A stretch of DNA of 64,000 bases, taken from Burkholderiales bacterium. Lineage in GTDB: Bacteria; Pseudomonadota; Gammaproteobacteria; Burkholderiales; Ga0077523. Below, piece by piece: positions 5,297 to 57,350 of this stretch. Under the pieces are notes generated by a model. It made no database searches. It saw only the letters and a list, made by a program, of their open reading frames with translations, and was not told where the DNA came from. A program made the position numbers and the translations under genes. Within the stretch, counting starts at the first letter, position 1. Every line of letters begins with the position of its first letter. Location of the stretch: positions 124,001-188,000 of the forward strand of contig JAIESW010000029.1 of assembly GCA_019745565.1 (NCBI GenBank), read 5' to 3'.

Positions 5297-5482
5297 GAAC
5301 CCGTGTCCCCGAAACCGTGATCGGGCGCATGCGAGATGAATCGGATGGTACCGTAAGCCGGCAGTGCCCCGGGGCTGCTTGCCCGTGGGCGCGTGACGTC
5401 CCGGCCGCCCCATTCGAGGCGGCAGGAATATCATCGGCGCTCGCCCGTGCCGCCTTTAGGCCGCGTATGGGGCCGGACTGCT

Positions 5483-6625
5483 TCAACCACGCGCGCCGAA
5501 CCACTCCGCGAGCGTGGGCGCGAGGATCTTCTGCGCCTTGCCGCCGACGAAGGTGCCGATGTGACCGCCGGGCACCGGCACCTCGGTGTAGTCGTCGGTG
5601 CCGAAGTGATTGCCGACGCCGCGTGAGCACGAGACCGGGACGATGGTGTCGCCGGTTGCATAGATGTTCAGCACCGGCATGGTGATGTTGCGCAGATCGA
5701 CGGTTCGTCCGCCGAGCACCAGCCGGCTGCGGATCAGCTTGTTCTCCTGATAGAGGTCTTTCAACCACTGGCGCAGGACTTCGCCCGGATGATCGGGTCG
5801 GTCCGCGATCCACCGCTCCATGCGCAGGAAGCCGAGCAGCTTCGCATCATCGTCGAGGACGTCGATGAGATCGGTGGAGTACTTGGTGAGATGGCTGACC
5901 GGATTCATCATCAGGAATGCGAAGCCCACCAGCGCGCCGGGTGCCGAACCGTAGACATCGACGAAGTCGTCCACGTCCTGGGTGGTCATGGAACGTGCCC
6001 AGCCGTTCATGTATCCGGCGCCGACCTGCGGTTCCTTGCGATCGCCGTGGAAGTCGAGCGGCGTCACGGTGAGTGCGAGGTTGCGCACTTTCTGCGGGAA
6101 CAATGCCGCGTAGCACGTGGAGAAGACACCGCCCTGGCAGATGCCCATGAGGTTGATGCCATCCCTTCCTGAGCGACGGCGGATCACGTCGACGCAACGG
6201 TCCAGGTAACCCGACACATAGTCGTCGATCCCGAGCCAGCGTTGAGCGCGCCCCGGCAGTCCCCAGTCGATGAAATACACATCGAAGCCGCTGGCCAGCA
6301 GCTTGCGCACCAGCGAGCGGTCCGCCTCGAGGTCGATCATCTGGAAGCGACCCACCAGTGCGTAGGCGATCAGGATCGGCACCGGATGCGGCTTGTCGAC
6401 GACGGGACGACAGCGGTACAGGCGCACCATGTCTTCGCGCCAGACCTCATCGCGCGGGACGGTTGCTATGGCCAACTCGTCCTCCGAAAGCTCGGCGAGC
6501 TTCTTGAGTCCGCGCGCGAGCTTGCCGCGGGCTGCCTCCAGTTCTTTCGCTGCCGATTCCGCGGTGATCGACAGCGCTGCGGCCGCGCGGCTCAGCAACT
6601 GCGCCTGATCGAGTGGGGGGCTCAT
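5483..6625 (-). CDS. phaC: Class III poly(3-hydroxyalkanoate) synthase, catalytic subunit PhaC
   Basis: A 380-residue catalytic subunit that polymerises (R)-3-hydroxyacyl-CoA into polyester at the granule surface. The lipase-like box 'GICQGG' puts the nucleophile Cys at residue 163. The catalytic Asp is in 'YATGDTIVP' (about 326) and His in 'VPGGHIGTF' (about 355). Its length and the partner phaE immediately upstream identify class III (PhaEC) rather than the roughly 600-residue class I enzyme. Start ATG 6625 is fixed by the near-perfect ribosome site GAAGGAGGT eight bases upstream, inside the 13-bp gap after phaE. The frame stays open upstream into phaE, but that part is only its out-of-frame shadow. 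Confidence 0.95.
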   Translation of the reverse strand: MSPPLDQAQLLSRAAAALSITAESAAKELEAARGKLARGLKKLAELSEDELAIATVPRDEVWREDMVRLYRCRPVVDKPHPVPILIAYALVGRFQMIDLEADRSLVRKLLASGFDVYFIDWGLPGRAQRWLGIDDYVSGYLDRCVDVIRRRSGRDGINLMGICQGGVFSTCYAALFPQKVRNLALTVTPLDFHGDRKEPQVGAGYMNGWARSMTTQDVDDFVDVYGSAPGALVGFAFLMMNPVSHLTKYSTDLIDVLDDDAKLLGFLRMERWIADRPDHPGEVLRQWLKDLYQENKLIRSRLVLGGRTVDLRNITMPVLNIYATGDTIVPVSCSRGVGNHFGTDDYTEVPVPGGHIGTFVGGKAQKILAPTLAEWFGARG

Positions 6626-41764: not shown

Positions 41765-43132
41765 TTACGCCTGACGCAGATGCCAGGCCTTCGGCCGCGT
41801 GAAGGTCTCGATGCCGTAGGTGGACAGGGTCAGTCCGACGCCCGAATGACCGACGCCCGACCACGGCAGGCGCGGGCTCACGCGATCGCAGCAGTTCCAG
41901 TACACCGAGCCCGCATTGACTTGCGCGAGCAGGCGCTGCGCGCGCGCTTCGTCCTTCGTGTACACGCCGGCCGTCAGGCCGTAGGCCGTGTCGTTCATCA
42001 GCTTCACCGCCTCGTCGTCCCCGGAGACCTTCTGGATGCCGATGATCGGACCGAAGCTCTCCTCACGCATCACTTCCATCGAGTGGTTCACGTTCGAGAA
42101 CACCGTCGGCTCGAACCAGTTGCCGGCACCGGGAATGCGCTTGCCGCCGGCCAGCAGCTTCGCGCCCTTCGCCTGGGCATCGGCCACCTGCCGCTCCAGC
42201 ACGGCGAGCTGCGGTGCGCGCGTGAGCGGGCCGATGTAGCTGCCGGGCTCCGTGGGCTTGCCGATCTTGAAGCCCTTCACTTCCTTCACGAATGCATCGA
42301 CGAAGGCGTCGTGGATCTTCTCGTGCACGTAGATGCGTTCCACCGAGCAGCAGCTCTGGCCGGTGTTGTACATGGCACCGTCGGCGAGCGAGCCGACCGC
42401 GGCCTGGATGTCCACGTCCTCGCAGACGTAGCTCGGGTCCTTGCCGCCCAGTTCCAGTTGCAGCTTGATCAAGCGTCCGGCCACGGCTTCGGCGATCTTC
42501 TTCCCCGTGGCGTAGGAGCCGGTGAAGAACACGCCGTCGATGGGTTGGGCCAGCAGCGCGGCGCCCACGGCACCGCCGCCGACCAGGACAGTGAAGATGT
42601 CCTTCGGCACGCCGGCTTCGTGCAGCAGGCGCGCGATCTCGAGGCCGGTCAACGTGGCGAATTCGGAGGGCTTGTACAACACCGCATTGCCGGTGAGCAG
42701 GGCAGGCACGAACACGTTCGCGCCGACGAACCACGGGTAGTTCCACGCCGAGATGTTGGCGATGACGCCGAGCGGCGTGTGCGAAATGCGCTCGCGCATC
42801 CCGGCGTCGTCGAACACGGTGCGCGGCGCAAGCGTTTGCTCGGTCTCGGCCAGGAAGAAATCGATGCGACCCAACAGGCCGTTCAGTTCGTTCTTGGATT
42901 GCTGCAGCGGCTTGCCCACTTCGGAGGTCTCGACGGCTGCCAGTTTGTCCAGATCGCGCACGACACCCTCACGGAACCTGCGCATGATCGCGAGTTTGTC
43001 CGAGAGCGCCACCGCGGCCCAGGCCGGTTGCGCGGCACGGGCGGCGCGGTACTTGGCCGCGACGGAATCGGCGGTGTCCTCCGGCAACTGGGTGATGGTG
43101 CTGCCGTCGGCGGGATTGGTGATGGTCAACAT
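41765..43132 (-). CDS. Aldehyde dehydrogenase (NAD(P)-dependent)
   Basis: A 455-residue ALDH. The Rossmann motif 'FTGSYATGKKIAEAVAG', the general-base Glu in 'LELGGKDPSYV' and the nucleophile Cys in 'NTGQSCCSVERIYV' are intact. It oxidises an aldehyde to the acid. The cluster (gamma-glutamyl ligase, Fe alcohol dehydrogenase, gamma-glutamyl amide hydrolase) suggests the substrate is a gamma-glutamyl amino aldehyde, analogous to PuuC of putrescine breakdown. Acetaldehyde from the Eut-like lyase is the other candidate. Last gene of the island, 22 bp after the hydrolase gene. Confidence 0.93.
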   Translation of the reverse strand: MLTITNPADGSTITQLPEDTADSVAAKYRAARAAQPAWAAVALSDKLAIMRRFREGVVRDLDKLAAVETSEVGKPLQQSKNELNGLLGRIDFFLAETEQTLAPRTVFDDAGMRERISHTPLGVIANISAWNYPWFVGANVFVPALLTGNAVLYKPSEFATLTGLEIARLLHEAGVPKDIFTVLVGGGAVGAALLAQPIDGVFFTGSYATGKKIAEAVAGRLIKLQLELGGKDPSYVCEDVDIQAAVGSLADGAMYNTGQSCCSVERIYVHEKIHDAFVDAFVKEVKGFKIGKPTEPGSYIGPLTRAPQLAVLERQVADAQAKGAKLLAGGKRIPGAGNWFEPTVFSNVNHSMEVMREESFGPIIGIQKVSGDDEAVKLMNDTAYGLTAGVYTKDEARAQRLLAQVNAGSVYWNCCDRVSPRLPWSGVGHSGVGLTLSTYGIETFTRPKAWHLRQA

Positions 43133-43154
43133 CCGGAACAGCCTTTCGTGAAGA

Positions 43155-43979
43155 TCAGGAAGTGGAAACGGGGGCGCCCTGCTGCTTGCGTGCGCGGGCG
43201 GCCTCGAGGAAATCGTGGAGGATCGGCTTGCCCGACAGTTCCGCTTGCTGGCCGGAACTGTGGATCATGAATTCGGGATGCCATTGGATGCCGAAGACGT
43301 AACTCGGACCCCGCCAGCGGATCGCCTCGACGATGCCGTCGGGCACGCCGACAGCTTCCACGACGAGGTCCTTGCCGACGTCCTTCACCGCCTGGTGGTG
43401 GATCGAATTGATGGTGGCCTGCGTCACGCCGGGGTAGAGCTCGGCGAGATGGGTGCCGCGCACCAGGCTGATCGTGTGGAACTGCTGGTCGTACTTCACC
43501 GCGTTGCGATGCTCGATGGCTTCGGGCACCTGGGTTTCGATGTCCTGGTACAGCGAGCCACCCAAGGCGACGTTGATGAGTTGGCAGCCGCGGCAGATGC
43601 CGATCACTGGCTTGCCGTGGTCCACGAAGGCCTTGAAAAGATCCATCTCGTAGCGGTCGCGCACCGGGTCGCCCGACCATTCGGGCTTGAGCGGCGTCTC
43701 GCCGTAGGTCTGCGGCGAGAGATCGTTGCCGCCCTGCAGCACCAACCCGTCGAGGTGCTCGGCGTAGGCGTGCAGGCTCATCTCGCTGCGCTCGATCATG
43801 CCGGCGCTCTCGATGGCGGGGATCATCACCACCAGCACCTTGCGCGACATGACCCAGTGGGCCACGGACTGCTCCAGATAGTGCAGCGTCTTGGTGAAGA
43901 CGCCACCCATGTCGAGTACCGGACTGATCGGGTGGTAGATCCGGGCGGATATGCCGATCAGCAAGCGGTCCTTCATCAC
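43155..43979 (-). CDS. Gamma-glutamyl-GABA-hydrolase-like enzyme (PuuD type, peptidase C26)
   Basis: A 274-residue class I glutamine-amidotransferase-fold hydrolase. The nucleophile Cys lies in 'GICRGCQLINVALGG', the His and Glu in 'FGIQWHPEF'. 'LVLQGGNDLSP' forms the substrate pocket. It removes the gamma-glutamyl group from a gamma-glutamylated amine product, releasing glutamate. Its ATG overlaps the stop of the Fe-ADH gene (ATGA, 43976-43979), so the two are coupled. With the ligase and the two dehydrogenases it completes a PuuA-PuuC-PuuD-like logic, but with an alcohol dehydrogenase where PuuB would be an amine oxidase. Confidence 0.92.
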   Translation of the reverse strand: MMKDRLLIGISARIYHPISPVLDMGGVFTKTLHYLEQSVAHWVMSRKVLVVMIPAIESAGMIERSEMSLHAYAEHLDGLVLQGGNDLSPQTYGETPLKPEWSGDPVRDRYEMDLFKAFVDHGKPVIGICRGCQLINVALGGSLYQDIETQVPEAIEHRNAVKYDQQFHTISLVRGTHLAELYPGVTQATINSIHHQAVKDVGKDLVVEAVGVPDGIVEAIRWRGPSYVFGIQWHPEFMIHSSGQQAELSGKPILHDFLEAARARKQQGAPVSTS

Positions 43980-45109
43980 ATCGCCTGTTCGTAGAACCGT
44001 ATGAAGTCCGCGCGCGTGCAGGGCCGCGGATTGGTCTGGCCTGCGATGTCCTTCTCCGCCACGGCCACCAGCGCCGGAATCTGCTCGCGCGTCACCTTCA
44101 CTGCCGAAAGCGACGCCGGAATGCCGATGGATGCCTTGAACCGCTTCAGCCAGGGTACGAAATCGTCCGCGCCGGCCGCGCCGACGGCATGCGCCATTTC
44201 GGCGAACTTGTCGCGCGCGACTTCCAGGTTGAACTGCATCACCGGTTCGATCATCAGTGCGTTGGCAAGACCGTGGTGCAGGTCGGCAACGGTGGAGAGT
44301 GCGTGGGCACAGGCGTGCACGGCGCCGAGGTCCTTCTGGAATGCCACTGCACCCATGAGCGACGACATCATCATGTCGCCGCGCGCCTGAATGTTGCCGG
44401 GCTCACGCACCGCAACCGGCAGGGCGCGGGCGCCGATGCGCATGCCTTCCAGAGCGATGCCGTCGCACATCGGGTGATAGGTGGGGCAGAGATAGGACTC
44501 GATGTTGTGCGTCATCGCATCCATGCCGGTCGCGGCGGTCACGTGGGCGGGCAGGGCGAGCGTGAGTTCGGGATCGGCGAATACCGCCTTGGCCAGCAGA
44601 CGCGGCGAGAACACGATCCGCTTGATGTGCGTGTCGTCCTCCGACACCACGCTCGAGCGGCCCACTTCGGAACCGGTGCCGCTGGTGGTCGGCAGCGCGA
44701 CGAAGTAAGGCAGATCGCCGTCGATCGGTCGCACCTTCGGGTGATCCCACACGTATTCCATGACGTCGCCTGCGTGCGTGGTCATCACGGCGACCACCTT
44801 CGCGACGTCCAGGCCGGCACCACCGCCGAAGCCGATGACGCAGTCGGCCCGGTGTGCGCGCGCAGCCGCGGCGCCTTCCATGACCTGAGCCCGCGTGGGG
44901 TTGCCGTAAACGTCGGAGAACACGGCGACATCGAGCCCGGCGCCGAGACCGCTGCGGAAGTCGGCCATGACGGGCAAGGCGGCGAGCCCCTTGTCCGTGA
45001 CGATGATCGGGCGTTTGACGCCGGCTTCGCGCAGATGATCGCCGACCAGCTTGCGCGCGCCGGGGCCGAATTGGATGGTGGTGGGGAAACCGAACTTGGT
45101 GATGGCCAT
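43976..45109 (-). CDS. Iron-containing alcohol dehydrogenase
   Basis: A 377-residue group III alcohol dehydrogenase. 'GFGGGAGLDVAKVVAV' binds NAD. The metal ligands are Asp in 'GMDAMTHNIESYLCP' and His in 'GAVHACAHALSTVADLHHGLANAL'. It oxidises a primary alcohol to an aldehyde. Its position between the gamma-glutamyl ligase and the PuuD-like hydrolase makes a gamma-glutamylated amino alcohol (for example gamma-glutamylethanolamide) the best guess. It is separated from the ligase gene by 232 bp that include repeat F, so it may have its own promoter or only weak read-through. Confidence 0.92.
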   Translation of the reverse strand: MAITKFGFPTTIQFGPGARKLVGDHLREAGVKRPIIVTDKGLAALPVMADFRSGLGAGLDVAVFSDVYGNPTRAQVMEGAAAARAHRADCVIGFGGGAGLDVAKVVAVMTTHAGDVMEYVWDHPKVRPIDGDLPYFVALPTTSGTGSEVGRSSVVSEDDTHIKRIVFSPRLLAKAVFADPELTLALPAHVTAATGMDAMTHNIESYLCPTYHPMCDGIALEGMRIGARALPVAVREPGNIQARGDMMMSSLMGAVAFQKDLGAVHACAHALSTVADLHHGLANALMIEPVMQFNLEVARDKFAEMAHAVGAAGADDFVPWLKRFKASIGIPASLSAVKVTREQIPALVAVAEKDIAGQTNPRPCTRADFIRFYEQAM

Positions 45110-45146
45110 GAGGGAAAGTTAACGAGATTGAGTGTGCTTGTACTGC

Positions 45147-45236
45147 GCCCCCATCCCAACCTTCCCCCACCGAAGGTGGGGGAAGGGGTGTACATCCCCT
45201 CCCCCGGCTATGCCGGGGGAGGGTTAGGGTGGGGGC
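45147..45236. repeat. Palindromic intergenic repeat, copy F (full)
   Basis: The most symmetrical copy: flanks GCCCCCATCCCAACC and GGGTTAGGGTGGGGGC, stems with loops ACCGAAGGT and GGCTATGCC, centre GGGGTGTACATCCCC. Lies inside the catabolic island between the gamma-glutamyl ligase and Fe-ADH genes, both on the minus strand, where it could attenuate or process the mRNA. Confidence 0.92.
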
Positions 45237-45341
45237 ATCGATGAAGACTGATAGCGAATCGACCAGCATAACGCACCGCCGTTCACACACCGCCGAACAT
45301 GTACCGAAGGGCCCTGCACCCCACCAACCAGAGGTGACATC

Positions 45342-46730
45342 TCAGACGATCTCGAAGTAGCGCTTCAACTCCCAGTCGGTCACGGCGTCCTGCCACTGGC
45401 GGTACTCCCAGTCGCGCGTCAGCGCGAAGTGGTCGACGAAGTCGTCGCCCAGCCAGTCGCGCGCCACTTTCGAGCGGCGGAAGATCTCGGTGGTGGCCGC
45501 CAGCGAGCGCGGGGCGCGCGGAATCTTCTCCGCTCCCTCGTTGGTGCCGCGGATCGCAGGTGTCGTGAGTTTGAGACCCTTCTCCACGCCATGCAGGCCG
45601 GCGGCAATCAGAGCGGCCACCGCGAGATAGGGGTTGATGTCCGCACCGGGGCAGCGCGTTTCCAGCCGGGTTGCCTTGGGCGACCCGGAGATCACGCGGA
45701 AGCTCGCCGTGCGGTTGTCCACGCCCCAGGTGGGTTTCACCGGGGCCCAGAAGCCGTCCACCAGCCGCTTGTAGCTGTTCACGGTGGGCCAGAACATCGG
45801 CGCGAACTCCATGGCCACCGCGACCTGCCCCGCGAGATAGCTCTCGAACAGCTTGCTCATCGAATGGCGGCCCTTCGCATCGAAGAAGACGTTCTTCTTG
45901 CCGTCCGACAGGCTCTGGTGCACGTGGCCGCTGCAGCCGGGATAGGCCTGACTCCACTTGGCCATGAAGCTCGGCATGATGCCGAAGCGCGAGGCGATCT
46001 CCTTGGTGCCGGTCTTGAACAGCAGTGCGCGGTCGGCCGCTTCGAGCGCTTCGGAGAACGCGATCGCGGCCTCATACACGCCGGGACCCGTTTCGGTGTG
46101 CAACCCTTCGATGGGTACGCGGAACGCCGCCATCTCGTCCTGCAGCGCGTTGAAGTACTCGCGCGAATGGTTGGCCCGCAGCAGCGAGTAGCCGAACATG
46201 CCCGGCGTGACCGGCGTGGGCTCCACGCCCTTCTTGGCGGCCCAGCTCTGCGGCGTCTCGGTGAAGTTGAACCATTCGAACTCGAGGCCGCACATGGGCT
46301 GGAAACCCAGTTTGGCAGCGCGCTTCAGCACCCGCTTCAAGGTCTGCCGCGGGCAGATCGGATGCGGGCTGCCGTCCGCACTCACGAAGTCCCCGAGGAA
46401 GAACGGCACGTTGTTGTCCCAAGGCACCTGCCGGACCGTGTTGAGATCGAGGCGCACCTGGGCGTCGGGGTAGCCCTTGTGCCAGCCCGTGAGCAGCGTG
46501 TTGTCGTAGCAGACGTCGTGCATGTCCCAGCCCAGCACCACGTCGCAGAAGCCGAAACCGCCTTCCACGGCCGAGGCGAACTTGTCGCGGTGGAGGTACT
46601 TGCCGCGCAGGATGCCGTCGATATCGCTGACCGCGACCTTGACCTTGCCACTGCCGGAGCGGGCGACCAGGTCGAGGGCGGGATGATGCGTCCGGGCGGC
46701 GGCCTGGACTTTCTTGCTGGCGCGGGCCAT
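45342..46730 (-). CDS. Glutamine-synthetase-like gamma-glutamyl amine ligase (PuuA/GlnA4/IpuC type)
   Basis: A 462-residue GS-fold ligase. Metal and nucleotide residues are present in 'GLEFEWFNF', 'TGPGVYEAAI', 'CSGHVHQSLSDG' and 'RVISGSPKATRLETRCPGADINPYLAVAALIAAG'. It lacks the adenylylation Tyr segment of bona fide GlnA and has the catabolic N-terminus ('VSDIDGILRGKYLHRDKFA') of gamma-glutamylputrescine and gamma-glutamylethanolamide synthetases. It would join glutamate to an amine with ATP. The island context (Eut-like lyase, Fe-ADH) points to ethanolamine or a related amino alcohol, but the amine is inferred. Confidence 0.88.
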   Translation of the reverse strand: MARASKKVQAAARTHHPALDLVARSGSGKVKVAVSDIDGILRGKYLHRDKFASAVEGGFGFCDVVLGWDMHDVCYDNTLLTGWHKGYPDAQVRLDLNTVRQVPWDNNVPFFLGDFVSADGSPHPICPRQTLKRVLKRAAKLGFQPMCGLEFEWFNFTETPQSWAAKKGVEPTPVTPGMFGYSLLRANHSREYFNALQDEMAAFRVPIEGLHTETGPGVYEAAIAFSEALEAADRALLFKTGTKEIASRFGIMPSFMAKWSQAYPGCSGHVHQSLSDGKKNVFFDAKGRHSMSKLFESYLAGQVAVAMEFAPMFWPTVNSYKRLVDGFWAPVKPTWGVDNRTASFRVISGSPKATRLETRCPGADINPYLAVAALIAAGLHGVEKGLKLTTPAIRGTNEGAEKIPRAPRSLAATTEIFRRSKVARDWLGDDFVDHFALTRDWEYRQWQDAVTDWELKRYFEIV

Positions 46731-47570: not shown

Positions 47571-49763
47571 TCAAGGTCTGGTCTTTCGATCGCTCGCGAT
47601 GAGGCTCTCCAGCCGATTCCCCGCCGCCTTGTGAGCGAGGATGTCGAAGATCTTCTCCGCCACCACGCTCCCGGCTTCCACCGGCGGCAGGCCGCCGGCG
47701 TAGATGTTCGAGATGACGGAATACTCGTAGCGCACGTCCGGATTGCCGCTGAAGCGCGCCGCCTCGGCGCGGGTCTGCGGATCATCCAGGCGATACGCGA
47801 AGTACGCCGACATGCTGCGCGAGGCCAGCGCGTCGCCGCCGGGACGCTCTCCGATCAGCACCAGCGTGAGCTTCGCTTGCAGCGCATCGCCCACCGCTTC
47901 GGCCAGCTTCACGCGTCCGAAGGGGGCGAGGATCGGCGGGCCGATCTTGCAGTCGCGGCTGCGCAGTCCGTCGAGCAGCACCGGCAGCAGCGCGGGTACG
48001 TTGTGGTGGATGGCTTCGGCGGAAAGACCGTCGGACACCACGATCTGCACGTCGCTGCGTTCGGGAGACAGTTGCGTACGCAGCTCGTCGGCGAGGCGGG
48101 AACCCAGCTCGGGATCGTTCAGATGCGCTTCGCGATCCCCGGCGGCCGTCCGGAAGCGGCGGAACGTGAGGCCGTCGACGGCGTCGATCCTCAGATCGGC
48201 GTAGATCGCTTCCCGGCCTACAGCCAGGTTCGCGCGCAGCGTGCGCGACACACGATCGGCCGGGCGCGGACCGGCGCTGTCGAAGCCGTAGGCCGCGGGG
48301 ACGCTCTCCAGTAGCCGCTGGTACTCCGCGTCGGAACTGCAGAAGAGCCTCGGATTACCCCAGTGGGGCCCTCGCAGCACCGTGCCGTCTTCCGCCTCTT
48401 CGAAGATGCCGCGCTCCATGGCCCAACGCAGGAACTCGGGCGCGGGCTTCAGGCCGTGCACTTCGCGCAGCGTCTGGTCGTCGTGGCCGCTGGTATCGAA
48501 GTACGCGAGCATGCGGTCGGTGTGCAGGTGCACGTCCATGTAGTAGTTGCAGCCCGCCGCGGTCAGGAGCTGTGTCGCCATCTGCTGGCCTTCCAGCGTG
48601 ATCTTCGAGTGCAGTGTGTAGCAGGGCGCCATGCCCATGGGCAGGCCCATCAGCTTCGCCATGCAGTGATCCTGCAGGTTCGACACGATCATCTCGACGT
48701 TGTCGAGGTGGGTCTCGGGCCCGATGAAGCCGGTCACGTTGTTCACCATGAACGGGTCGTAACGGCGCGCAAGCCCGTAGCACAGCGCTTCGCAGACGGC
48801 CATGTCCATGCCGTTGTGCTTGCCGTAGGTGAGTTCGCTGCCCTGGCCGGTTTCGAAGTACATCCACGTCGCGGCCACGTCGCGCAGCGGTCCGCGCTCC
48901 GCCATCGTGACGCAGGCCCGGTCGAGCAGGTCGACGGTCACGTCGAATTCCTCGGTCAGCGTGCGATCGGTGCCCGCGAGGCTCTGGAACAGGATCTCCA
49001 CCGGATCACCGCGCTCCAGGCACGCAAGCTGTGTCTTCACGTGGCTCAGTACGCAGATCTGGGTAGGGGCACCGGTGGTCCGTCGCAGCTTGTCGAGATG
49101 GCGCAGCAGAGCGCCGATGTTCTCGACGGTATCGATGGCCGGATTGACCCCGAGCAGCTGATCGCCGGACCCCATGGACAAACCGGCGTAGACCAGCATA
49201 GTGATGCCGTCGAGGTTGTCGCTCGGGTGATTGGGTTGCAGACGCGAAGACAGCGTTCCGGGCAGGCCCAGCAGCGTGCGGGCCTTCGCCGAGCGCTTGG
49301 CCTTGCGCGCCACCAGGACCAGCTCGTGCACGTCCATCAGCTTCACCAGCGCCGCCGCCATCACGCCGGTCAACGCACCGCCCACCCGTTTCACTTCGGC
49401 GGGCGCGCTGCGCAGCAGATGGTCCTTGAGCGCGCCCAGCGTCATCGAGGCGATCGAGCCGAATGCCTCGAGGTCGATGTCGTAGTTGACGCGCATCACG
49501 GAGTCCACGCGCCCCTTGTCGTCCGTGAGTGGGCGATCGTAGAGGTGTTGCAGCGTGAGGCCCGCGAGGATGTGCCGTGCCGCCTCACGCGTGACTTCGT
49601 CAGGCGCCGCGAGACCCGCCACCCGGTCACCGGCCTTGCTGACGTCGGCGGCGCCGAGCAGCGCCTTGAGGCCCTTGAAGGTGAACGACCGGTCGAGGAC
49701 CGTGGTCGCATAGATCTCGTCCGGTCGTGGATCGGGCACGACGATGTCGGGGAGCGGCTTCAT
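47571..49763 (-). CDS. eutBC: Ethanolamine ammonia-lyase-like enzyme, EutB-EutC fusion in one chain
   Basis: A 730-residue single chain. Residues 1-475 are EutB-like: 'SSRLQPN' (Arg174, Gln176), 'GVNPAID' (Asn207), 'MYFETGQGSEL' (Glu304), 'VTGFIGPE' (Phe346). Residues of about 505-730 are EutC-like: 'VQIVVSDGLSAEAI', 'LIGERPG', 'SNIYAGGLPPVEA', the cobalamin-contact regions. In E. coli the two are separate subunits; the N-terminal helical part of EutC ('GRAG' region) is not recognisable here. The residue equivalent to E. coli EutB Asp362, which binds the substrate amine, is Ala379 ('PMGMAPCYT'). The AdoCbl radical chemistry looks conserved; the substrate may differ. Six bp after eutA, so co-expressed with its reactivase. 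Confidence 0.9.
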   Translation of the reverse strand: MKPLPDIVVPDPRPDEIYATTVLDRSFTFKGLKALLGAADVSKAGDRVAGLAAPDEVTREAARHILAGLTLQHLYDRPLTDDKGRVDSVMRVNYDIDLEAFGSIASMTLGALKDHLLRSAPAEVKRVGGALTGVMAAALVKLMDVHELVLVARKAKRSAKARTLLGLPGTLSSRLQPNHPSDNLDGITMLVYAGLSMGSGDQLLGVNPAIDTVENIGALLRHLDKLRRTTGAPTQICVLSHVKTQLACLERGDPVEILFQSLAGTDRTLTEEFDVTVDLLDRACVTMAERGPLRDVAATWMYFETGQGSELTYGKHNGMDMAVCEALCYGLARRYDPFMVNNVTGFIGPETHLDNVEMIVSNLQDHCMAKLMGLPMGMAPCYTLHSKITLEGQQMATQLLTAAGCNYYMDVHLHTDRMLAYFDTSGHDDQTLREVHGLKPAPEFLRWAMERGIFEEAEDGTVLRGPHWGNPRLFCSSDAEYQRLLESVPAAYGFDSAGPRPADRVSRTLRANLAVGREAIYADLRIDAVDGLTFRRFRTAAGDREAHLNDPELGSRLADELRTQLSPERSDVQIVVSDGLSAEAIHHNVPALLPVLLDGLRSRDCKIGPPILAPFGRVKLAEAVGDALQAKLTLVLIGERPGGDALASRSMSAYFAYRLDDPQTRAEAARFSGNPDVRYEYSVISNIYAGGLPPVEAGSVVAEKIFDILAHKAAGNRLESLIASDRKTRP

Positions 49764-49769
49764 CGCGGT

Positions 49770-51176
49770 TCAGTGCATCCCGTAGAACGACACCGGCACC
49801 ACACCGTCGCGCGGCCGGCCGATGTTGGCGAAGTGTGCGTGCCGATCGGGCATCTCGTCCACCACGATCAGGCTGGTCCGTGCCCGGCCCCAGTCGGTCG
49901 CGTAGTTGCCGAGCGTCTTGCCGAGGTTGGGCTCCAGCAGCAGCACCAGGGGACGGTCGAGTGGTGACGCGTGCCCGAGGGCGCGCGCGATGCGTTCACC
50001 CAGCCGCTTGACTCCGTCTTGCGCCGGCATCGTTCCGAGGAACTGGATGCATGCCCCGCGCGCATGCCGCCGAGCGAGCGCAATCGCATCGCCTATGGCG
50101 GCGGCGCCGGCACCGATGGGGAGGCGGGCGACGACCGGCAGATCGCGCAGAGGCAGGACACCGGCATCCGGCAGGAACAGCGTCGTGCCGGAAACCTCGG
50201 TGCTGTGCAGCGCCAGCCCATAGACCGTGGCGCGGCCGCGCTGCTCCGGGACCATCGCATTGAGATCGCGCGCCAGCAATGGCGAGCGGGCGATGCGCAA
50301 GGCGAGATCGATCCCGAGATCGCCGAAATGCGTCGTGCCCGGCAACGGCTGACCGGCGGCATGGCGGTAGAGCAATTCACCGACCCCGCCGGAAAAGGTG
50401 ATCGCGGCCCCGGTCGACCCCGGAAAGGCCACCTGCTCGTGCGTGCGCCCTACGGATGTGGCGAAGAAGGTGCTGTCGCCGCGCACGACGGCTTCCAGCG
50501 CGGCGACATACCAGTCGAGGACGGCGGCGAGGGCAGGTTCGTCCAGCACGTCGCCGACCTCGCGGCGAAGGTCCAGCGACTGCAGCAAAGCTCGGCCCTG
50601 CTGCGAGATCGACGTCAGGCGATAGGTGCCGGGTCGCACCTGGAAGTGGCGCGCGCCGATGTAGTGGCAGCCGGTCGCGGACACGTCACCGTCGAGCCCC
50701 AGGGCGGGATTGGTGGTGCCGCCGCCGATGTCGAGGTTGAGGATCGGCCGACCCGGATGCAGCCGGCTCAAGGTCGAGCAGCTCCCCATGAATGCGAGCC
50801 ACGACTCGAGGCAGGGATCGTCCGCCGTGGCCACCACCGCTTCGCCGATACGGTTGCCCACGGCGCGGGCGATGATCGTCGCGTTGTCGCGGAGCGCGGC
50901 GAGTCCGGTGATGATCGTGCCGCCCGCGAAGAAGTCCTGCGGCCGAAAACCGCTCGCGGCAAACCAGCGATCGAGCAGTGCATCGATCGCATCGGCGTCG
51001 ATGCCGTCGTCGCGGAACGGCGTGAACACCGGCTCGGGCCGATAGACGATCTCCGGGGATTCCAGTTCCATGCGCCCGGTGACGCCGTGATGTCCCACAC
51101 GCGCCCGCGCCACGAGGGCACTGCTGGTGGTGGAGCCGAAGTCGAGGCCGATCAGGTGCACCGCGGTTCGGTCCAT
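49770..51176 (-). CDS. eutA: EutA-like reactivating factor for ethanolamine ammonia-lyase
   Basis: A 468-residue actin/Hsp70-fold ATPase. 'GLDFGSTTSSALV' (phosphate 1), 'LNLDIGGGTTNPALG' (phosphate 2) and 'ITFSGGVGELLYR' (adenosine motif) are present. EutA exchanges damaged cobalamin from the lyase, using ATP. ATG 51176 leaves a 4-bp gap after the FGGY kinase; an ATG at 51218 would overlap it by 38 bp and adds residues without resemblance. It directly precedes the EutBC fusion, which supports a cobalamin-dependent role for that fusion. Confidence 0.92.
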   Translation of the reverse strand: MDRTAVHLIGLDFGSTTSSALVARARVGHHGVTGRMELESPEIVYRPEPVFTPFRDDGIDADAIDALLDRWFAASGFRPQDFFAGGTIITGLAALRDNATIIARAVGNRIGEAVVATADDPCLESWLAFMGSCSTLSRLHPGRPILNLDIGGGTTNPALGLDGDVSATGCHYIGARHFQVRPGTYRLTSISQQGRALLQSLDLRREVGDVLDEPALAAVLDWYVAALEAVVRGDSTFFATSVGRTHEQVAFPGSTGAAITFSGGVGELLYRHAAGQPLPGTTHFGDLGIDLALRIARSPLLARDLNAMVPEQRGRATVYGLALHSTEVSGTTLFLPDAGVLPLRDLPVVARLPIGAGAAAIGDAIALARRHARGACIQFLGTMPAQDGVKRLGERIARALGHASPLDRPLVLLLEPNLGKTLGNYATDWGRARTSLIVVDEMPDRHAHFANIGRPRDGVVPVSFYGMH

Positions 51177-51180
51177 GGCA

Positions 51181-52638
51181 TCAGGCCGTCCGCCAACGGC
51201 GTGCCCGTTCGACCGCATCGGCGAAGCGCGCGTGCAGCTCCGGCGTCAACGGGCCGTCGGGCTCGACGATGCGATCCGGTGGTGCCACGGGCGGCAACGT
51301 CTCCAGCGGTCCAAAACCGGCACCGATGAAGGCGAACTGGGCGCATCCCAGCCCGGTGAGATCCGGGGTGGACGGCACGACGATCGTCCGGTCCAACGCC
51401 CGCGCCAGAAAGGAGCAGAAGTACGGATTGAGCGTGAGGCCGCCATCGACCGACACGGCCGACGCGAGCGGCACCCGTTCATTCATCGCCGCCAGAGCCT
51501 GCGCGCTGCGCAGCGCGACGCCTTCGAGGACGGCTTGAACGAGATCGAGCCGGGTCGTGTCGAGCCCCATCCCGAGCCACAGGCCTGCGGCTGAGCGATC
51601 CCAGTAGGGGCAGGCCAATCCCGACAACGCCGGCACGAACGCGAGGCCGCGCTCGAGCGCGCTCGGTCTGGTGAGATCGCGCAGCTCGCGAAAGTTCGCG
51701 AACAATCCCAGGCGCTTCGCCCAATCGAGCGCCGACGCGGCGTTGAATACGCCCCCGTCGATGGCATAGGTAGTCCGCGTACCGAGACGCCACGCGACGG
51801 TCGGCAGGATCCCGGCATCCGGTGCGGCGACGGGCGTGTTGCCCGCCACGGCCAGGGCGAATGCACCGGTACCGAAGGTGATCTTCGCCTGGCCCTGCGC
51901 ATGACAACCGTGTCCGAACAGGGCGGCCTGCTGGTCCACCATACTCGCCACCAGCGGTATCCGCGTGCCGGTGATCACGCCATGCTCGAACACCGTCGGG
52001 CGGATCGGCGGCAGCAGGTCCATCGGCACGTCGAACAGGCGGCAGAGCTCCGGATCCCATTGCCCGGTCGCGAGATTCATGAGGCTGGTGCGCGACGCCG
52101 TGGTCACGTCGGTGGCGTAGGTGCCGCAGAGGCGGTCCAGGAAGTACGCATCGCTCGTGGCCAGTCGCAAGCGGCCCTTGCTCGCGAGCGACTTCGCTTC
52201 GGGAACGTGGTCGAGGATCCAGCGCAGCTTCGTCGCAGAGAAGTACGCGTCGAGCGGCAGGCCGGCACGCTCCAGGGTGAGCGATTCCGCTCCGTCGGCC
52301 TTGAGGCGCTCGATGGTGGGCTGGGTGCGATTGTCCTGCCACACGATGGCGTTGCCGACCGGTTCGCCGGTTTCGGCGTCCCACGCGATCACCGTCTCGC
52401 CCTGGTTGTCGATGGCGAGTGCGTCCGCACCTTGCGCGTAGTCGAGGCACTGGCGGATGTTCGCGAGCAGTTCGCGCGGATCGTGTTCGACCCAGCCGGC
52501 CTGCGGGTAATGCTGGCGATGCTCCACCGAGAACATCGGCTGGAACGTGCCGTCCAGGAACAACTGGTGGGCCTTGGTCGCCGTGGTGCCCTGGTCGATG
52601 GCGACCACGAAGCGCGGGTGCTCTTCCTCTTCAGCCAT
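51181..52638 (-). CDS. FGGY-family carbohydrate kinase, glycerol-kinase-like
   Basis: A 485-residue two-domain FGGY kinase with 'AIDQGTTATKA' (ATP phosphate loop), 'AIVWQD', 'AYFSATK', 'VDQQAALFG' (catalytic Asp235) and 'VDGGLTLNPYFCSFLAR'. By alignment with GlpK, Trp100, Tyr132 and Asp235 are kept, but the glycerol-binding Arg of 'NQRET' is Gly80 ('NQGET'). It would phosphorylate a small polyol, not necessarily glycerol. Coupled tightly to EutA and preceded by two flavin oxidoreductases of the GlpA/GlpB style. A kinase-dehydrogenase module for a C3 or C4 alcohol within an Eut island is unusual. Confidence 0.88.
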   Translation of the reverse strand: MAEEEEHPRFVVAIDQGTTATKAHQLFLDGTFQPMFSVEHRQHYPQAGWVEHDPRELLANIRQCLDYAQGADALAIDNQGETVIAWDAETGEPVGNAIVWQDNRTQPTIERLKADGAESLTLERAGLPLDAYFSATKLRWILDHVPEAKSLASKGRLRLATSDAYFLDRLCGTYATDVTTASRTSLMNLATGQWDPELCRLFDVPMDLLPPIRPTVFEHGVITGTRIPLVASMVDQQAALFGHGCHAQGQAKITFGTGAFALAVAGNTPVAAPDAGILPTVAWRLGTRTTYAIDGGVFNAASALDWAKRLGLFANFRELRDLTRPSALERGLAFVPALSGLACPYWDRSAAGLWLGMGLDTTRLDLVQAVLEGVALRSAQALAAMNERVPLASAVSVDGGLTLNPYFCSFLARALDRTIVVPSTPDLTGLGCAQFAFIGAGFGPLETLPPVAPPDRIVEPDGPLTPELHARFADAVERARRWRTA

Positions 52639-52653: not shown

Positions 52654-53883
52654 TCATGGACGCGCGGGCTCTGCGAGATCCACCGCGAGGGATTCGACGC
52701 TGCCGAGATGCTGCGTGTCGAGCGGGAGGTAGAGCCGGCGTTCCGGCAGAAAGCGACGATCCTGCCCCCACAACTCGCGCTTGCCGGCCAGCACCCGCAG
52801 TCGACCGTTTGCCGGGCGCGCCACGCGGGCGTTGAACGGCAGCGCTGCCGGCAAAGGGGCCGGTGTCGCCGCGCGTTGCGGGCACACGTAGCGTACGGGT
52901 CCGTGCGCTTCGAGGGGGATCAGCCGCGTGGCAGCGGGCAATGCGTCGTGCAGGCTCGCAGCGATGGCATGGGCCACGGCACGGCCTTCGCTCCAGACGG
53001 TCCACGAGGGTTCCACCGGACGCAGCAGATTGCCGGCGGCGAAGAAGTCCGGATCGCTGCAGCGACCGTACTGGTCCACGACGGGGCCGCCAGTGCCGGC
53101 GTCGAGTGCGAGGTGGCTCGACCTCACGATGGCGGTCTCCGGCACGAAACGGCCGGTGAAGACCACACCGTCGCAGGCGATGATCGAGCGCTCGCCCGCA
53201 CGTTCGATCTCGATGCCCGTGACCGAGCGCGCGCCGTGGATCGCCACGACCTGTGTACGCGTGAGCACGCGGGTCGCGAAGGCGATGCGGGCGATCCAGG
53301 CGCCCGGTGCCGGTGCCAGGATGCGCTCGCCCGATTCGATCATCGCGACCGGCTTGATGCCGGCGTGTCGCATGGTGAGGAGGCTCGAGAACGAGACGAA
53401 CTCGGTGCCGACGATCACCGCGCGCCTGCACGGCTGGATGCGGGCGAGATACACGAGCTGTTGCAGGGCGCCGGTGGTGAAGACGCCCCAGGGTCGCGTG
53501 CCGGACACGAGGCGGGTCGAACGCGGGGTCTCGCGCGTACCGAGCGCGAGCAGTATCCGCTTCCCCGTCAGAGTCTCCTGGCCCTCCGGCGAAACGACGC
53601 GGATCCGACCGCCGGGTTCGAGCGCCAGCGCGGTCGTGCCGGTGCGCACTTCGACTCCCGCCGCCGCATGCGACAGGCGCTTTGCATACGACGGGCCGGT
53701 GAGTACCCGGCGGAATTCCTTCCAACCGAATCCAAGGTGTCCGCAGTGCCTCGGAACACCGCCGGCTTGTTGTTCACGTTCGATGACCAGCACGTCGCGG
53801 ACGCCGAGACGTTTCAGTTCCGCCGCCGCGGCGAGCCCCGCCGGGCCGGCACCGAGGATGATGACGTCGTTGGTGGCAGTCAC
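52654..53883 (-). CDS. FAD/NAD(P)-dependent oxidoreductase
   Basis: A 409-residue flavoprotein with 'VIILGAGPAGLAAAAEL' (FAD), a second dinucleotide-binding region 'AVIVGTEFVSF', and 'DGVVFTGRFVPET' and 'CSDPDFFAAGNLLRPVEPSW' of the pyridine nucleotide-disulfide family. It resembles the alpha subunits of opine/HCN-synthase-like and GlpA-associated dehydrogenases. I choose GTG 53883 over TTG 53904, because it starts directly before the Rossmann motif. It lies 15 bp upstream of the kinase and downstream of the GlpA-like gene, from which a 30-bp inverted repeat separates it. It probably passes electrons with that protein. Confidence 0.82.
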   Translation of the reverse strand: MTATNDVIILGAGPAGLAAAAELKRLGVRDVLVIEREQQAGGVPRHCGHLGFGWKEFRRVLTGPSYAKRLSHAAAGVEVRTGTTALALEPGGRIRVVSPEGQETLTGKRILLALGTRETPRSTRLVSGTRPWGVFTTGALQQLVYLARIQPCRRAVIVGTEFVSFSSLLTMRHAGIKPVAMIESGERILAPAPGAWIARIAFATRVLTRTQVVAIHGARSVTGIEIERAGERSIIACDGVVFTGRFVPETAIVRSSHLALDAGTGGPVVDQYGRCSDPDFFAAGNLLRPVEPSWTVWSEGRAVAHAIAASLHDALPAATRLIPLEAHGPVRYVCPQRAATPAPLPAALPFNARVARPANGRLRVLAGKRELWGQDRRFLPERRLYLPLDTQHLGSVESLAVDLAEPARP

Positions 53884-53910
53884 GATGCTCTCAAGCGGGG
53901 GCAAACGTCT

Positions 53911-54026: not shown

Positions 54027-55415
54027 TCATCGTTCATCGATGGCCGCCGGCACATCCACCAGCCGTCCTGCCGCCAGCTGCGCTACGCGCCAGCTGCAAT
54101 AGAACCCCTGACACCGCCCCATCATGCACCGGGTGCGCCGCTTCAGTCCGCCGAGGTCGCCCGCCGGCAGCGGCCCGCCGAGAGCCGCTTCGATCTCGTG
54201 CCGGGTCACCAGTTCGCAATGACACACGATCTCGCCCGCGTCCGGCTCCTGCCAGCGCCGCGGTCGTTCCTCGCAGAGGTTCGGTACCGGCGTCCAGATC
54301 GGCTCCGCGGTCCAGTCGAGCACACCGAAGTGCTGCGCGTACAGATCGGCCACGTGCTGCGCGATCCCGAGCGCTGCCGTCAGCCCTGTGGACCGGATGC
54401 CGCCCACGGTGATCCAGTGGCGATCGGGCAGGGCTTCGATCTGATAGTCCTTGAACTGGGTGGCCGGACGCAGGCCCGCGTACACCGCGTTGACGGTATG
54501 GCTCGCGAGAGCGGGGACCAGCGCGCGCGCTCTGGCGACCAGGCGATCGAGCGCATTTTCGTCGACCGTTGCCACGTCGCGAGCCTCCTGGTCTTCCGCC
54601 GTCGGTCCCACCAGGAGATTGCCGTAGGCCGTGGGGCAAACCAGCACGCCCTTCGTGCGCGCGGTCGGCACCGGCAGCACGATGGAGTAGACGAGTTCGC
54701 GCGCCGGTTTGTCGAACACGACGAACTGGCCCTTCCGCGGCCGGATCTCGAACGGTGAGGTGCGGGCGATCGATTCGATCTGATCGCCGTAGAGTCCCGC
54801 CGCGTTGATGACCACCTTCGCGGTGATCTCCCCGGTGGTGGTCGCGAGCAGCCAGTGATCGTCCTCGCGTTCTCCGCCCTGCACCTCGGTGCTGCGCCGG
54901 ACGATGGCACCGTGCGCCATGGCCTGGTGCACGTAGGCCAGGGGAGCCGACCACGGATCGATCACGTGCTCGCCGGGAACGAGCACGGCACCCAGCGCGC
55001 CCGGTGCCAGGTTCGGTTCGCGCGCATACAACTCGGCGGAGTCGATGAGACGGACGTCGGCGACGCCGTTGCCGTGCGCCTGCTCGACGATCGCGGGCAA
55101 CTTCACCAGTTCTTCGTCGTTCCAGGCGACCACGATGCCGCCGGTCTCCACCAGGGGCAGATTGAACGCGTGGCGGACGTCCAGATACTCGCGATAGCCG
55201 GCCCGCATGCACGCCAGTTCGAGGCTTTCGGGCGGCGCGTCGAACCCGGTGTGGAGCAGGGCGCTGTTGCCCTTGCTCGCACCCGACAGGATGTCCGCAC
55301 CGCGTTCCAGGAGCACGCATTCGGCGCCCCCCAGCGCCATTCTTCGGAGGATGGCGCACCCCACGACACCGCCGCCGATCACGGCGACGTCGAAGGGTTG
55401 AGTCGGGGATTCCAT
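54027..55415 (-). CDS. GlpA-like FAD-dependent dehydrogenase with C-terminal BFD-type [2Fe-2S] domain
   Basis: A 462-residue flavoprotein. N-terminal 'VAVIGGGVVGCAILRRMA' binds FAD, and DAO-fold elements 'SALLHTGFDAPPESLELAC' and 'INAAGLYGDQIESIAR' follow. From about residue 370 a bacterioferritin-associated-ferredoxin-like domain carries four Cys: 'GEIVCHCELV' and 'RRTRCMMGRCQGFYC'. This architecture is that of anaerobic-type glycerol-3-phosphate dehydrogenase A. With the kinase and FAD/NAD partner it forms a polyol-phosphate oxidation module. It would oxidise the phosphorylated alcohol made by the kinase. Substrate inferred from neighbours. Confidence 0.88.
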   Translation of the reverse strand: MESPTQPFDVAVIGGGVVGCAILRRMALGGAECVLLERGADILSGASKGNSALLHTGFDAPPESLELACMRAGYREYLDVRHAFNLPLVETGGIVVAWNDEELVKLPAIVEQAHGNGVADVRLIDSAELYAREPNLAPGALGAVLVPGEHVIDPWSAPLAYVHQAMAHGAIVRRSTEVQGGEREDDHWLLATTTGEITAKVVINAAGLYGDQIESIARTSPFEIRPRKGQFVVFDKPARELVYSIVLPVPTARTKGVLVCPTAYGNLLVGPTAEDQEARDVATVDENALDRLVARARALVPALASHTVNAVYAGLRPATQFKDYQIEALPDRHWITVGGIRSTGLTAALGIAQHVADLYAQHFGVLDWTAEPIWTPVPNLCEERPRRWQEPDAGEIVCHCELVTRHEIEAALGGPLPAGDLGGLKRRTRCMMGRCQGFYCSWRVAQLAAGRLVDVPAAIDER

Positions 55416-55514: not shown

Positions 55515-57098
55515 TCAGGCGACGCCGACCGCCTTCTCCGCGGCAGCGATCTCGGCCTGCCGTTTCGCGATCATGTCGCCGATCGGCGGGCCCTGGAAGC
55601 GCCGGGATTCCAGCGCGATCCAGAAGACCGCCATCGCGACCAGCAGGCCGACGATGAGGTAGCCCACCTTCTCGTTGGGCGGCTGCACCCCCACGAAGAT
55701 CAGCAGCGCGCAGCCGATGATCGCGAGCACGCTCACGAACTTCGAGGCGGCCCCCAGCTCGAACGGTCCCTTCCTGGTCCACCTGCCGTTCATCTCCGCC
55801 CGCAAACCGGCAGCGATCGGGAGGATGTAGGAGATGTAGAGGAAGACGGCGCAGCCGGTCGACAGCACCACGAACGCATCGCCGTACAGGGTGGCGATGA
55901 TCGACAGGATGGCACCCCACCAGATCGCGTTCACCGGCGTGCGGTGCTTGCGGCTCACTTGCTTCAATGCCCGCGAGAAGGGGAGACCGCCGTCACGGGA
56001 GAACGCGAACATCATGCGCGAGGTCGACGTCAGACCGGCCAGGGCGCAGATGTAGTTCGCGATCACGATGGCGATGATCAGGACGTCCTTGAAGATCTTC
56101 GGCATCGGCGACTGCTGCATCAGCCAGGGAAAGGCGTTCCAGCCCTGCTTGGCGCCTTCCTCGATGCTGGGCATCGCGAGGATGAACGCGCACAGCATCA
56201 CGTAGCCGAACAGGAAGGACCAGAAGACCGAATGGATCATGCCGCGCGGCGCCGAGCGGGCGGCGTCGCGCGTTTCCTCGGCCGTGTGGGCCGAAGCATC
56301 GAAGCCCGTCACCGTGTAGACGCCCTGCAGCAGCCCGAGCAGGAAGATGAACGGGACCGAATGGATCACCGTGGGCCATACATTCCCGCCGGCTTCGCCG
56401 GAGTAGTTGCTGAACGTGAACAGGCGCGAGAAGTCGAGGCTCGGTGCGTAGAACAGCAGGGCGAGCGTCAGCAGCACCGCCGCGACGAAGATGAGATACC
56501 CGCTGAAGTCGGTGAGGATCGTGGTGGCCCGGATGCCGACGTGATTGAGCCAGGCCTGCGTGACCGTGATGGCGGCGATGAAGATGGTCTGCGTCCACCA
56601 GCCCCGATCGAGCGGCGCTTCGGTGACCCAGCCCAGGGCCTTGATGTCGAGTCCCAGCACTTCGCCGAGGAACAGGTCGCGGAACAGCAGGAACACGCCG
56701 AAGTTGACCGACGACACGACGAACAGCAGTCCCAGCAGATTGAACCATGCGGCGACCCAGCCGTAGCCGCGTCCGCCGAGCAGCGATGCCCAGTGATAGA
56801 TGCCGCCCGCCGTGGGATACGCAGATGCGATCTGCCCCATGGCTGCGGCCACCAGCAACGCGAAGAGGCACGCAAGCGGCCAGCCGAAACCGACCGATGC
56901 GCCGCCCGCTGCACTCAGCGACAGCGGAAACGCGGTGATGCCACCCGCTAGGATGCAGATGATGGAAAACGAGATGGCGAAGTTCTGGAAAGCGCCCATG
57001 CGGCGCGACAGCTCCTGGGCGTAGCCCATGCTGTGCAGCGTCTTGACGTCTTCGTCGTGGGCGTCACTCTGCTCGTACGACTTGCTGGAATCGGCCAT
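55515..57098 (-). CDS. APC-family amino acid/amine permease
   Basis: A 527-residue, 12-helix permease of the amino acid-polyamine-organocation superfamily. 'RRMGAFQNFAISFSIICILAGGITAFPLSLSAAGG' (helix 1) and 'AYPTAGGIYHWASLLGG' are signature segments of the amino-acid/choline/GABA-permease group. A GAGAGAGA-like site precedes ATG 57098. It is the first gene of the minus-strand island, so it most likely imports the amine or amino alcohol the island degrades. No permease of the EutH type is present. About 250 bp upstream carry no gene and presumably the main promoter. Confidence 0.92.
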   Translation of the reverse strand: MADSSKSYEQSDAHDEDVKTLHSMGYAQELSRRMGAFQNFAISFSIICILAGGITAFPLSLSAAGGASVGFGWPLACLFALLVAAAMGQIASAYPTAGGIYHWASLLGGRGYGWVAAWFNLLGLLFVVSSVNFGVFLLFRDLFLGEVLGLDIKALGWVTEAPLDRGWWTQTIFIAAITVTQAWLNHVGIRATTILTDFSGYLIFVAAVLLTLALLFYAPSLDFSRLFTFSNYSGEAGGNVWPTVIHSVPFIFLLGLLQGVYTVTGFDASAHTAEETRDAARSAPRGMIHSVFWSFLFGYVMLCAFILAMPSIEEGAKQGWNAFPWLMQQSPMPKIFKDVLIIAIVIANYICALAGLTSTSRMMFAFSRDGGLPFSRALKQVSRKHRTPVNAIWWGAILSIIATLYGDAFVVLSTGCAVFLYISYILPIAAGLRAEMNGRWTRKGPFELGAASKFVSVLAIIGCALLIFVGVQPPNEKVGYLIVGLLVAMAVFWIALESRRFQGPPIGDMIAKRQAEIAAAEKAVGVA

Positions 57099-57350
57099 GG
57101 TCTCTCTCGCGTGGTTATGGGCGGGTCCATCACGCCGGAACCCGGCACGAGCAGCAGCGATTGCCATGCCGGGGGCATTTGAGGCGCCAGCGATCATGCC
57201 AACGGCGTATTCCGCGTGTAAAGGTGCGGTGCATCATGAACTTGGCGCACTTGTTGCGAACTTTCCCAATCGTACGCATGCACTTCTCGGTGCACGACGG
57301 TGCTGCAGATGCACGCTTATGGGGCGAAAACCTCGCGCGCGCCGACCCGG

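Follow-up and report, generated by a model that had tools for sequence, protein, structure and literature searches.

The window, a 64,000-nucleotide stretch of a Burkholderiales genome, carries on its minus strand (positions 47571 to 49763) a fused EutB–EutC gene, a relative of ethanolamine ammonia-lyase (EAL) of a variant kind that we call AP-type. The open reading frame starts with ATG and encodes 730 residues. The EutB-like domain (residues 19 to 457; 48393 to 49709, minus strand), delimited by phmmer and Pfam alignment, comprises the TIM barrel and the active site, and the Pfam EutB match itself spans residues 27 to 457 with 453.9 bits. The EutC-like domain (residues 480 to 718; 47610 to 48326, minus strand) matches PF05985 with 164.4 bits and retains the EutC motifs SDGLS, GRVK and GERPG. 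The reading frame and both Pfam domains agree with the first-pass annotation, which had described a EutB–EutC fusion in a single 730-residue chain. That annotation had also noted the absence of the N-terminal part of EutC. This part is missing relative to Escherichia coli, with alignment beginning only at about residue 76 of E. coli EutC; the refinement is that residues 457 to 489 form a replacement linker.

The solved structures closest to the fused protein are 2qez (Listeria EutB) and 3abo (E. coli EutBC). An AlphaFold model built from 19 fused sequences (mean pLDDT 80.5) was compared with 3abo by Foldseek, giving a target TM score of 0.88 for 3abo_A and about 0.75 for the EutC chains (3abo_B). 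Pfam, PDB and Foldseek comparisons thus all identify the fold and domains of EAL. Because its scores lie below the NCBIfam cut-offs for both subunits (443.3 against 554 bits for EutB and 142 against 230 bits for EutC), the fused protein is an outlier of the EutBC family. It shares with the known enzyme (EC 4.3.1.7; 3abo and 2qez) both domains, the fold, the catalytic Arg, Gln, Asn, Glu, Phe and Met set and a EutA partner, whereas it differs in being one chain, in lacking the E. coli-type EutC N terminus and in having lost Asp362 together with V327, Y334 and L379 (E. coli EutB numbering). It is the sole EutB of the window genome.

In the genus of the window, the operon comprises an APC permease, a glycerophosphate-oxidase-like flavoprotein, an FAD oxidoreductase, a glycerol-kinase-like FGGY kinase, EutA and EutBC, all encoded on the minus strand in the window. 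The EutA-like reactivating factor (49770 to 51218), which adjoins EutBC, matches PF06277 with 213.9 bits and falls below all NCBIfam EutA cut-offs. The start of its gene is overlapped by the gene of the FGGY kinase (51181 to 52638), whose nearest structures are all glycerol kinases (best E value 8e-98) and which scores 396.7 bits against a cut-off of 590 for TIGR01311. A FAD/NAD-linked oxidoreductase (52654 to 53904; Pfam Pyr_redox_2), conserved in the genus operon, adjoins a glycerol-3-phosphate oxidase/GlpA-like flavoprotein with a BFD [2Fe-2S] domain (54027 to 55415; NF033460 225 bits, PDB 4x9m, PF04324). The APC-superfamily permease (55515 to 57197) is shared by the fused loci of the genus; its best match is TIGR00907 (230 bits), it is not of the EutH type, and it gave no match to the ethanolamine permease model TIGR00908. 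In a sister genome (L025), the canonical locus has an ethanolamine-permease homologue with 42% identity to a permease of the Eat type. Phospholipid breakdown yields glycerol as well as an amine, quaternary or primary, so such an operon would make sense, and our guess is that it is linked to these products. Just downstream of EutBC (41765 to 46730), glutamine-synthetase-like, iron alcohol dehydrogenase, gamma-glutamyl-amide hydrolase and aldehyde dehydrogenase genes form a set that is present in only three genomes of the genus; it is similar to a gamma-glutamylated amine/ethanolamine route, and may stand in for canonical EutBC in this genome.

Residue roles follow those of E. coli EutB, in which Asp362 binds the substrate amine, and the reference sequence was taken from the K-12 genome. 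Alignment with it bore out the earlier assignment of Arg174, Gln176, Asn207, Glu304 and Phe346 to E. coli R160, Q162, N193, E287 and F329; Met392 is also kept. In the amine-pocket motif P375-MGMAPCYTLH (48609 to 48641, minus strand), as aligned with EutB of E. coli and with 119 canonical sequences, E. coli C361-D362-C363 is replaced by M378-A379-P380. The reported substitution of Asp362 by Ala379, flanked by Met and Pro, is therefore confirmed, with Ala or Ser at this position in 20 of 20 fused proteins and Asp in 119 of 119 canonical ones. The alignment places no Asp or Glu in column 362, and two new carboxylates lie near it in sequence. These are Asp410, which corresponds to E. coli Gly393 beside the active-site Met392 (codon at 48534 to 48536, minus strand) and is Asp or Glu in all fused members, and Asp423, which corresponds to E. 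coli position 406. The model pLDDT is below 50 at residues 408 to 429, the stretch that includes both.

The same pocket occurs in EutB proteins whose length is normal. These unfused variants, from Bacillota, Actinomycetota and Desulfobacterota, have Ala at 362, and nearly all of them have Pro at 363. The AP-type EutB/EutBC subfamily, as defined in this analysis, contains 49 sequences in total, and R160, Q162, N193, E287 and F329 are invariant in all 49. Position 362 is Ala or Ser in these 49 sequences (Gly in one), as against Asp in all canonical sequences. The fused and unfused variants also have linked changes in common, V327S/T, Y334T, L379A/G and T406D, with single exceptions at 334 and 379 and with Asp at 406 in 47 sequences and Val in the other two; canonical EutB (n = 119) is nearly invariant at these positions (V327, Y334, L379 and S/T/C406). 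The window protein has the full AP-type set of A/S362, S/T327, T334, A/G379 and D406. Since several of the changes are from large to small side chains, the amine pocket has been rebuilt and, judging from the alignment, probably enlarged. Changes confined to the fused clade (G393D/E, Q405F, N367L and A296Y) indicate that this clade may have diverged further, and Asp/Glu393 may tune its charge or specificity.

The tree contains 20 distinct fused sequences from five phyla, which read M/I-A/S-P-C/S at positions 361 to 364 and all have Asp or Glu at 393. A lone degenerate copy or a sequencing error is rejected, as the motif is common to all 20. A phylogeny of the fused homologues, which the first-pass annotation had called for, gave a coherent and fully supported clade in which Asp362 is lost throughout. 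The genus of the window has the fused gene in seven genomes, including that of the window (67–92% identity), two of which also have a canonical separate eutB. A scan of species genomes recovered fused relatives of 62–73% identity, followed by a steep fall to below 40% over the full length. Hosts include Pseudomonas, Acetobacter, Hyphomicrobium, Aquabacter, Xanthobacter, Polyangium, Oceanobacter, Desulfosediminicola and Vibrio, metagenome-assembled genomes of Planctomycetota and Bdellovibrionales, and a Methylocystis plasmid, the homologue in Methylocystis being labelled plainly 'ethanolamine ammonia-lyase' in RefSeq. The gene is rare: among 397 other Pseudomonadota, one more genome has it, at a locus consisting of a bare eutA–eutBC pair.

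Fusion is not the defining trait of the subfamily, since fusion and loss of Asp occur separately. Three EutB–EutC fusions (L044, L068 and L070) are also single chains but have a canonical pocket with Asp362, and lie outside the fused AP-type clade; they appear to be independent fusion events. Conversely, unfused EutB proteins with Ala-Pro occur at L078, L140 and other loci. The fused state, which had formed part of the earlier argument for a new substrate, is thus neither cause nor marker of the pocket change. A tree computed without the trait columns sets fused and unfused variants apart (supports 100* and 99*), and an AU test did not reject the two as one clade (p = 0.38), for which reason we do not assert two independent origins of the motif. 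AP-type EutBC is almost certainly a distinct subfamily with a changed pocket.

Most variant genomes also encode a conventional enzyme. A second EutB that scores as canonical is present in 17 of the 19 variant genomes tested, and the Asp motif was read directly in nine of these 17; as a baseline, a EutB match of any kind occurs in 42 of 200 genomes (about 21%) from the order to which the window belongs. This co-occurrence argues that the variant is an added function. The two types can be immediate neighbours: in a Pseudomonas (L027) the fused gene directly precedes canonical eutB and eutC, and at L059 both EutB types adjoin. In a Planctomycetota genome (G217), the variant is the only EutB. Within one 70-kb region of Desulfoluna (G210 C4, 284233 to 354667; L081 and L139), two AP-type EutB lie together with a EutB that scores as canonical and with two CutC matches, of which one has an in-frame TGA.

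The gene context of the unfused variants points to methylated amines. Within about 10 kb, 11 of 27 unfused variant loci have genes of the MttB-family methyltransferase, MtbC/MtgC corrinoid or Pyl kinds, as against none of 33 canonical loci, the latter mostly from similar hosts (Fisher P = 3.8e-5, ignoring the relatedness of genomes). The pyrrolysine-containing trimethylamine (TMA) methyltransferase (Pyl-MttB) scores above its cut-off in 14 of 22 variant genomes and in none of 38 canonical-only genomes (P = 1.8e-8 by the same test, kinship again ignored), CutC in only 4 of the 22. Against this trend, MttB is wholly missing from some unfused-variant genomes (Lysinibacillus, Geosporobacter and G212–G214). 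In Sporomusa malonica (L140), PylB/C/D and the TMA methyltransferase MttB adjoin shell genes and variant eutB–eutC–eutA; this mttB (4907 to 6388, minus strand; 647 bits against a cut-off of 525) has one in-frame TAG, at codon 317, and ordinary gene calling splits it in two at this pyrrolysine codon. The second variant locus of S. malonica is followed by a PylS C-terminal domain, a kinase and an MtgC-like corrinoid protein. In Desulfosporosinus (L078), EutA is followed by an AraC regulator, corrinoid proteins, a homoserine-kinase-like kinase, an MttB-like methyltransferase and an MtrH-like protein, and MttB-like, EamA-type transporter, kinase, corrinoid and MtrH-like genes lie next to the variant at L078, L213 and L220. 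The EamA/DMT transporter, found at five variant loci and absent from canonical ones, has a homologue at cutC loci, and in Desulfoluna a variant eutBC locus continues directly into a cutC cluster. Unfused variants also neighbour bacterial microcompartment shell and aldehyde dehydrogenase genes. Dimethylamine was rejected as the main product: its methyltransferase occurs in 7 of the 22 variant genomes and at no variant locus, and TMA is better placed.

The flanking genes of L078, L213 and L220 are of the same kinds as those of the Eubacterium limosum mth cluster for choline demethylation, which, in the excerpted text of PMC12155760, consists of a kinase, an MttB-family enzyme, a corrinoid protein, a tetrahydrofolate methyltransferase and an EamA transporter. 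In the same excerpts, S. malonica is listed as a choline grower with mthK–mthB, whereas the mth cluster is described as only demethylating, with excretion of dimethylaminoethanol, and no EutBC-type enzyme is named in it.

The fused loci are arranged differently from one another. The divergent EutA is the steadiest partner of fused EutBC across phyla, present at most loci; no EutA homologue was detected in the flanking DNA examined at L031, L032 and L137 (Hyphomicrobium, Aquabacter and the Methylocystis plasmid). Contexts range from EutA alone, through a TRAP transporter (L037 and L038), to the glycerol-kinase- and glycerol-3-phosphate-oxidase-like genes of the window, and, against a methylated-amine substrate, no recognised methylamine genes occur at the fused loci examined. 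A TRAP transporter gene comes after the fused gene in both Desulfosediminicola and Vibrio. In Desulfovibrio and Bilophila, a TRAP-like transporter encoded close to cutC has been predicted to carry choline (PMC6620236); the case for the L037 and L038 transporters as choline TRAPs is weak, as they are only 25–38% identical to a TRAP beside one CutC-like gene, with none at the other cutC loci.

As the catalytic Glu, Arg, Asn and Gln and the EutC motifs are kept, EAL chemistry would be retained, and we predict that the fused protein is very likely an active AdoCbl lyase. The coherent clade, the linked pocket changes, the second canonical EutB and the distinct context of the unfused variants lend strong support to the earlier proposal of an AdoCbl lyase subfamily that acts on another substrate. 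Our candidate is an N-methylated ethanolamine, namely choline, N,N-dimethylethanolamine or N-methylethanolamine, for which we regard the case as evenly balanced. We infer catalysis, the substrate and its transfer from the unfused to the fused clade: N-methylated ethanolamines are well supported for the former, and would apply to the latter mainly through the shared pocket. The reaction would begin with AdoCbl homolysis, as in EAL, and hydrogen abstraction at C1 of the amino alcohol; the amine would then leave, yielding acetaldehyde and tri-, di- or monomethylamine, and the dedicated EutA would renew the inactivated cofactor. The difference would lie at the amine end, where the hydrogen-bond acceptor Asp362 is gone, side chains are smaller and carboxylates appear at 393 and 406. 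Choline has no N–H to give to Asp362, so loss of the acceptor and additional space would be expected, an argument that is weaker for N,N-dimethylethanolamine. Desulfosediminicola encodes two CutC matches above cut-off beside its fused EutBC, and choline cleavage by the latter would therefore be redundant there. More tentatively, and with the balance tipped slightly against it, AP-type EutBC, fused and unfused, might represent a second, B12-dependent and CutC-independent family for anaerobic and aerobic cleavage of choline or dimethylethanolamine that evolved from EAL.

An unlikely but serious alternative is that the enzyme is still a primary amino-alcohol ammonia-lyase, acting on ethanolamine, 2-aminopropanol, 1-amino-2-propanol or serinol with an altered preference for size or chirality, and that Asp410 or Asp423 replaces Asp362. 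The retained Gln162, Glu287, Asn193 and Arg160 and the new carboxylates at 393 and 406 fit this reading, as do the acceptance of 2-aminopropanol by E. coli EAL itself (PDB 5ysr) and the variant of Pseudomonas LD120, which forms part of a EutH–eutA–eutBC locus and stands in tandem there with eutB and eutC of the canonical type. However, it leaves unexplained both the choline/TMA context of the unfused variants and the loss of Asp362 in every member. A diol or glycerol dehydratase evolved from EutBC, which without the amine-binding Asp would remove water from a vicinal diol, seems improbable. The glycerol-kinase and glycerophosphate-oxidase homologues conserved through the genus would suit it, and the fold is common to diol dehydratases, but the similarity to these is remote (TM about 0.45, 16–17% identity), the window permease belongs to an amine/amino-acid superfamily, glycerol-gene homologues were not found at fused loci outside the genus, and the same pocket occurs elsewhere in amine loci. 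Of the substrates that the first-pass annotation had put forward, 2-aminopropanol, serinol and diols are thus not the best supported: where this pocket occurs elsewhere, its gene context favours choline or N-methylated ethanolamines. A non-catalytic or regulatory paralogue acting with canonical EutBC would account for the frequent, at times tandem, canonical EutB (17 of 19 genomes; L027 and L059), but is very improbable given the invariant catalytic residues, the conserved EutC motifs, the variant's own EutA and its position as the only EutB in the window genome and in G217.

The microbial cleavage that turns choline into TMA is attributed to CutC, a glycyl radical enzyme, and cutC is the gene from which TMA producers are predicted. 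Were choline its substrate, AP-type EutBC would catalyse the same net reaction (choline to TMA and acetaldehyde), although the protein families are unrelated and CutC uses a glycyl radical rather than AdoCbl. We found no description of this subfamily, or of any B12-dependent choline lyase, in the freely readable literature searched. A B12 route hidden under the name 'ethanolamine ammonia-lyase' would alter cutC-based predictions of TMA production, lead to the reassignment of many database entries and constitute a rare natural case in which an AdoCbl lyase has been redirected from NH3 to a substituted amine. Even with another substrate, the subfamily reveals pocket positions that move together.

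Further departures at pocket and catalytic positions were observed in individual EutB proteins. A EutB (L219, 1 to 1152; G607) has Gly at 362 (PLGMGCVYTNH), in a genome that also holds two AP-type EutB; an AP-type EutB adjoining a Pyl-type TMA methyltransferase (L223, around 9053; G799) reads VAQ rather than IAP or MAP; and within the genus of the window (G004; L010 and L014), a canonical-type EutB has the catalytic Glu287 replaced by Asp (MYFDTGQG).
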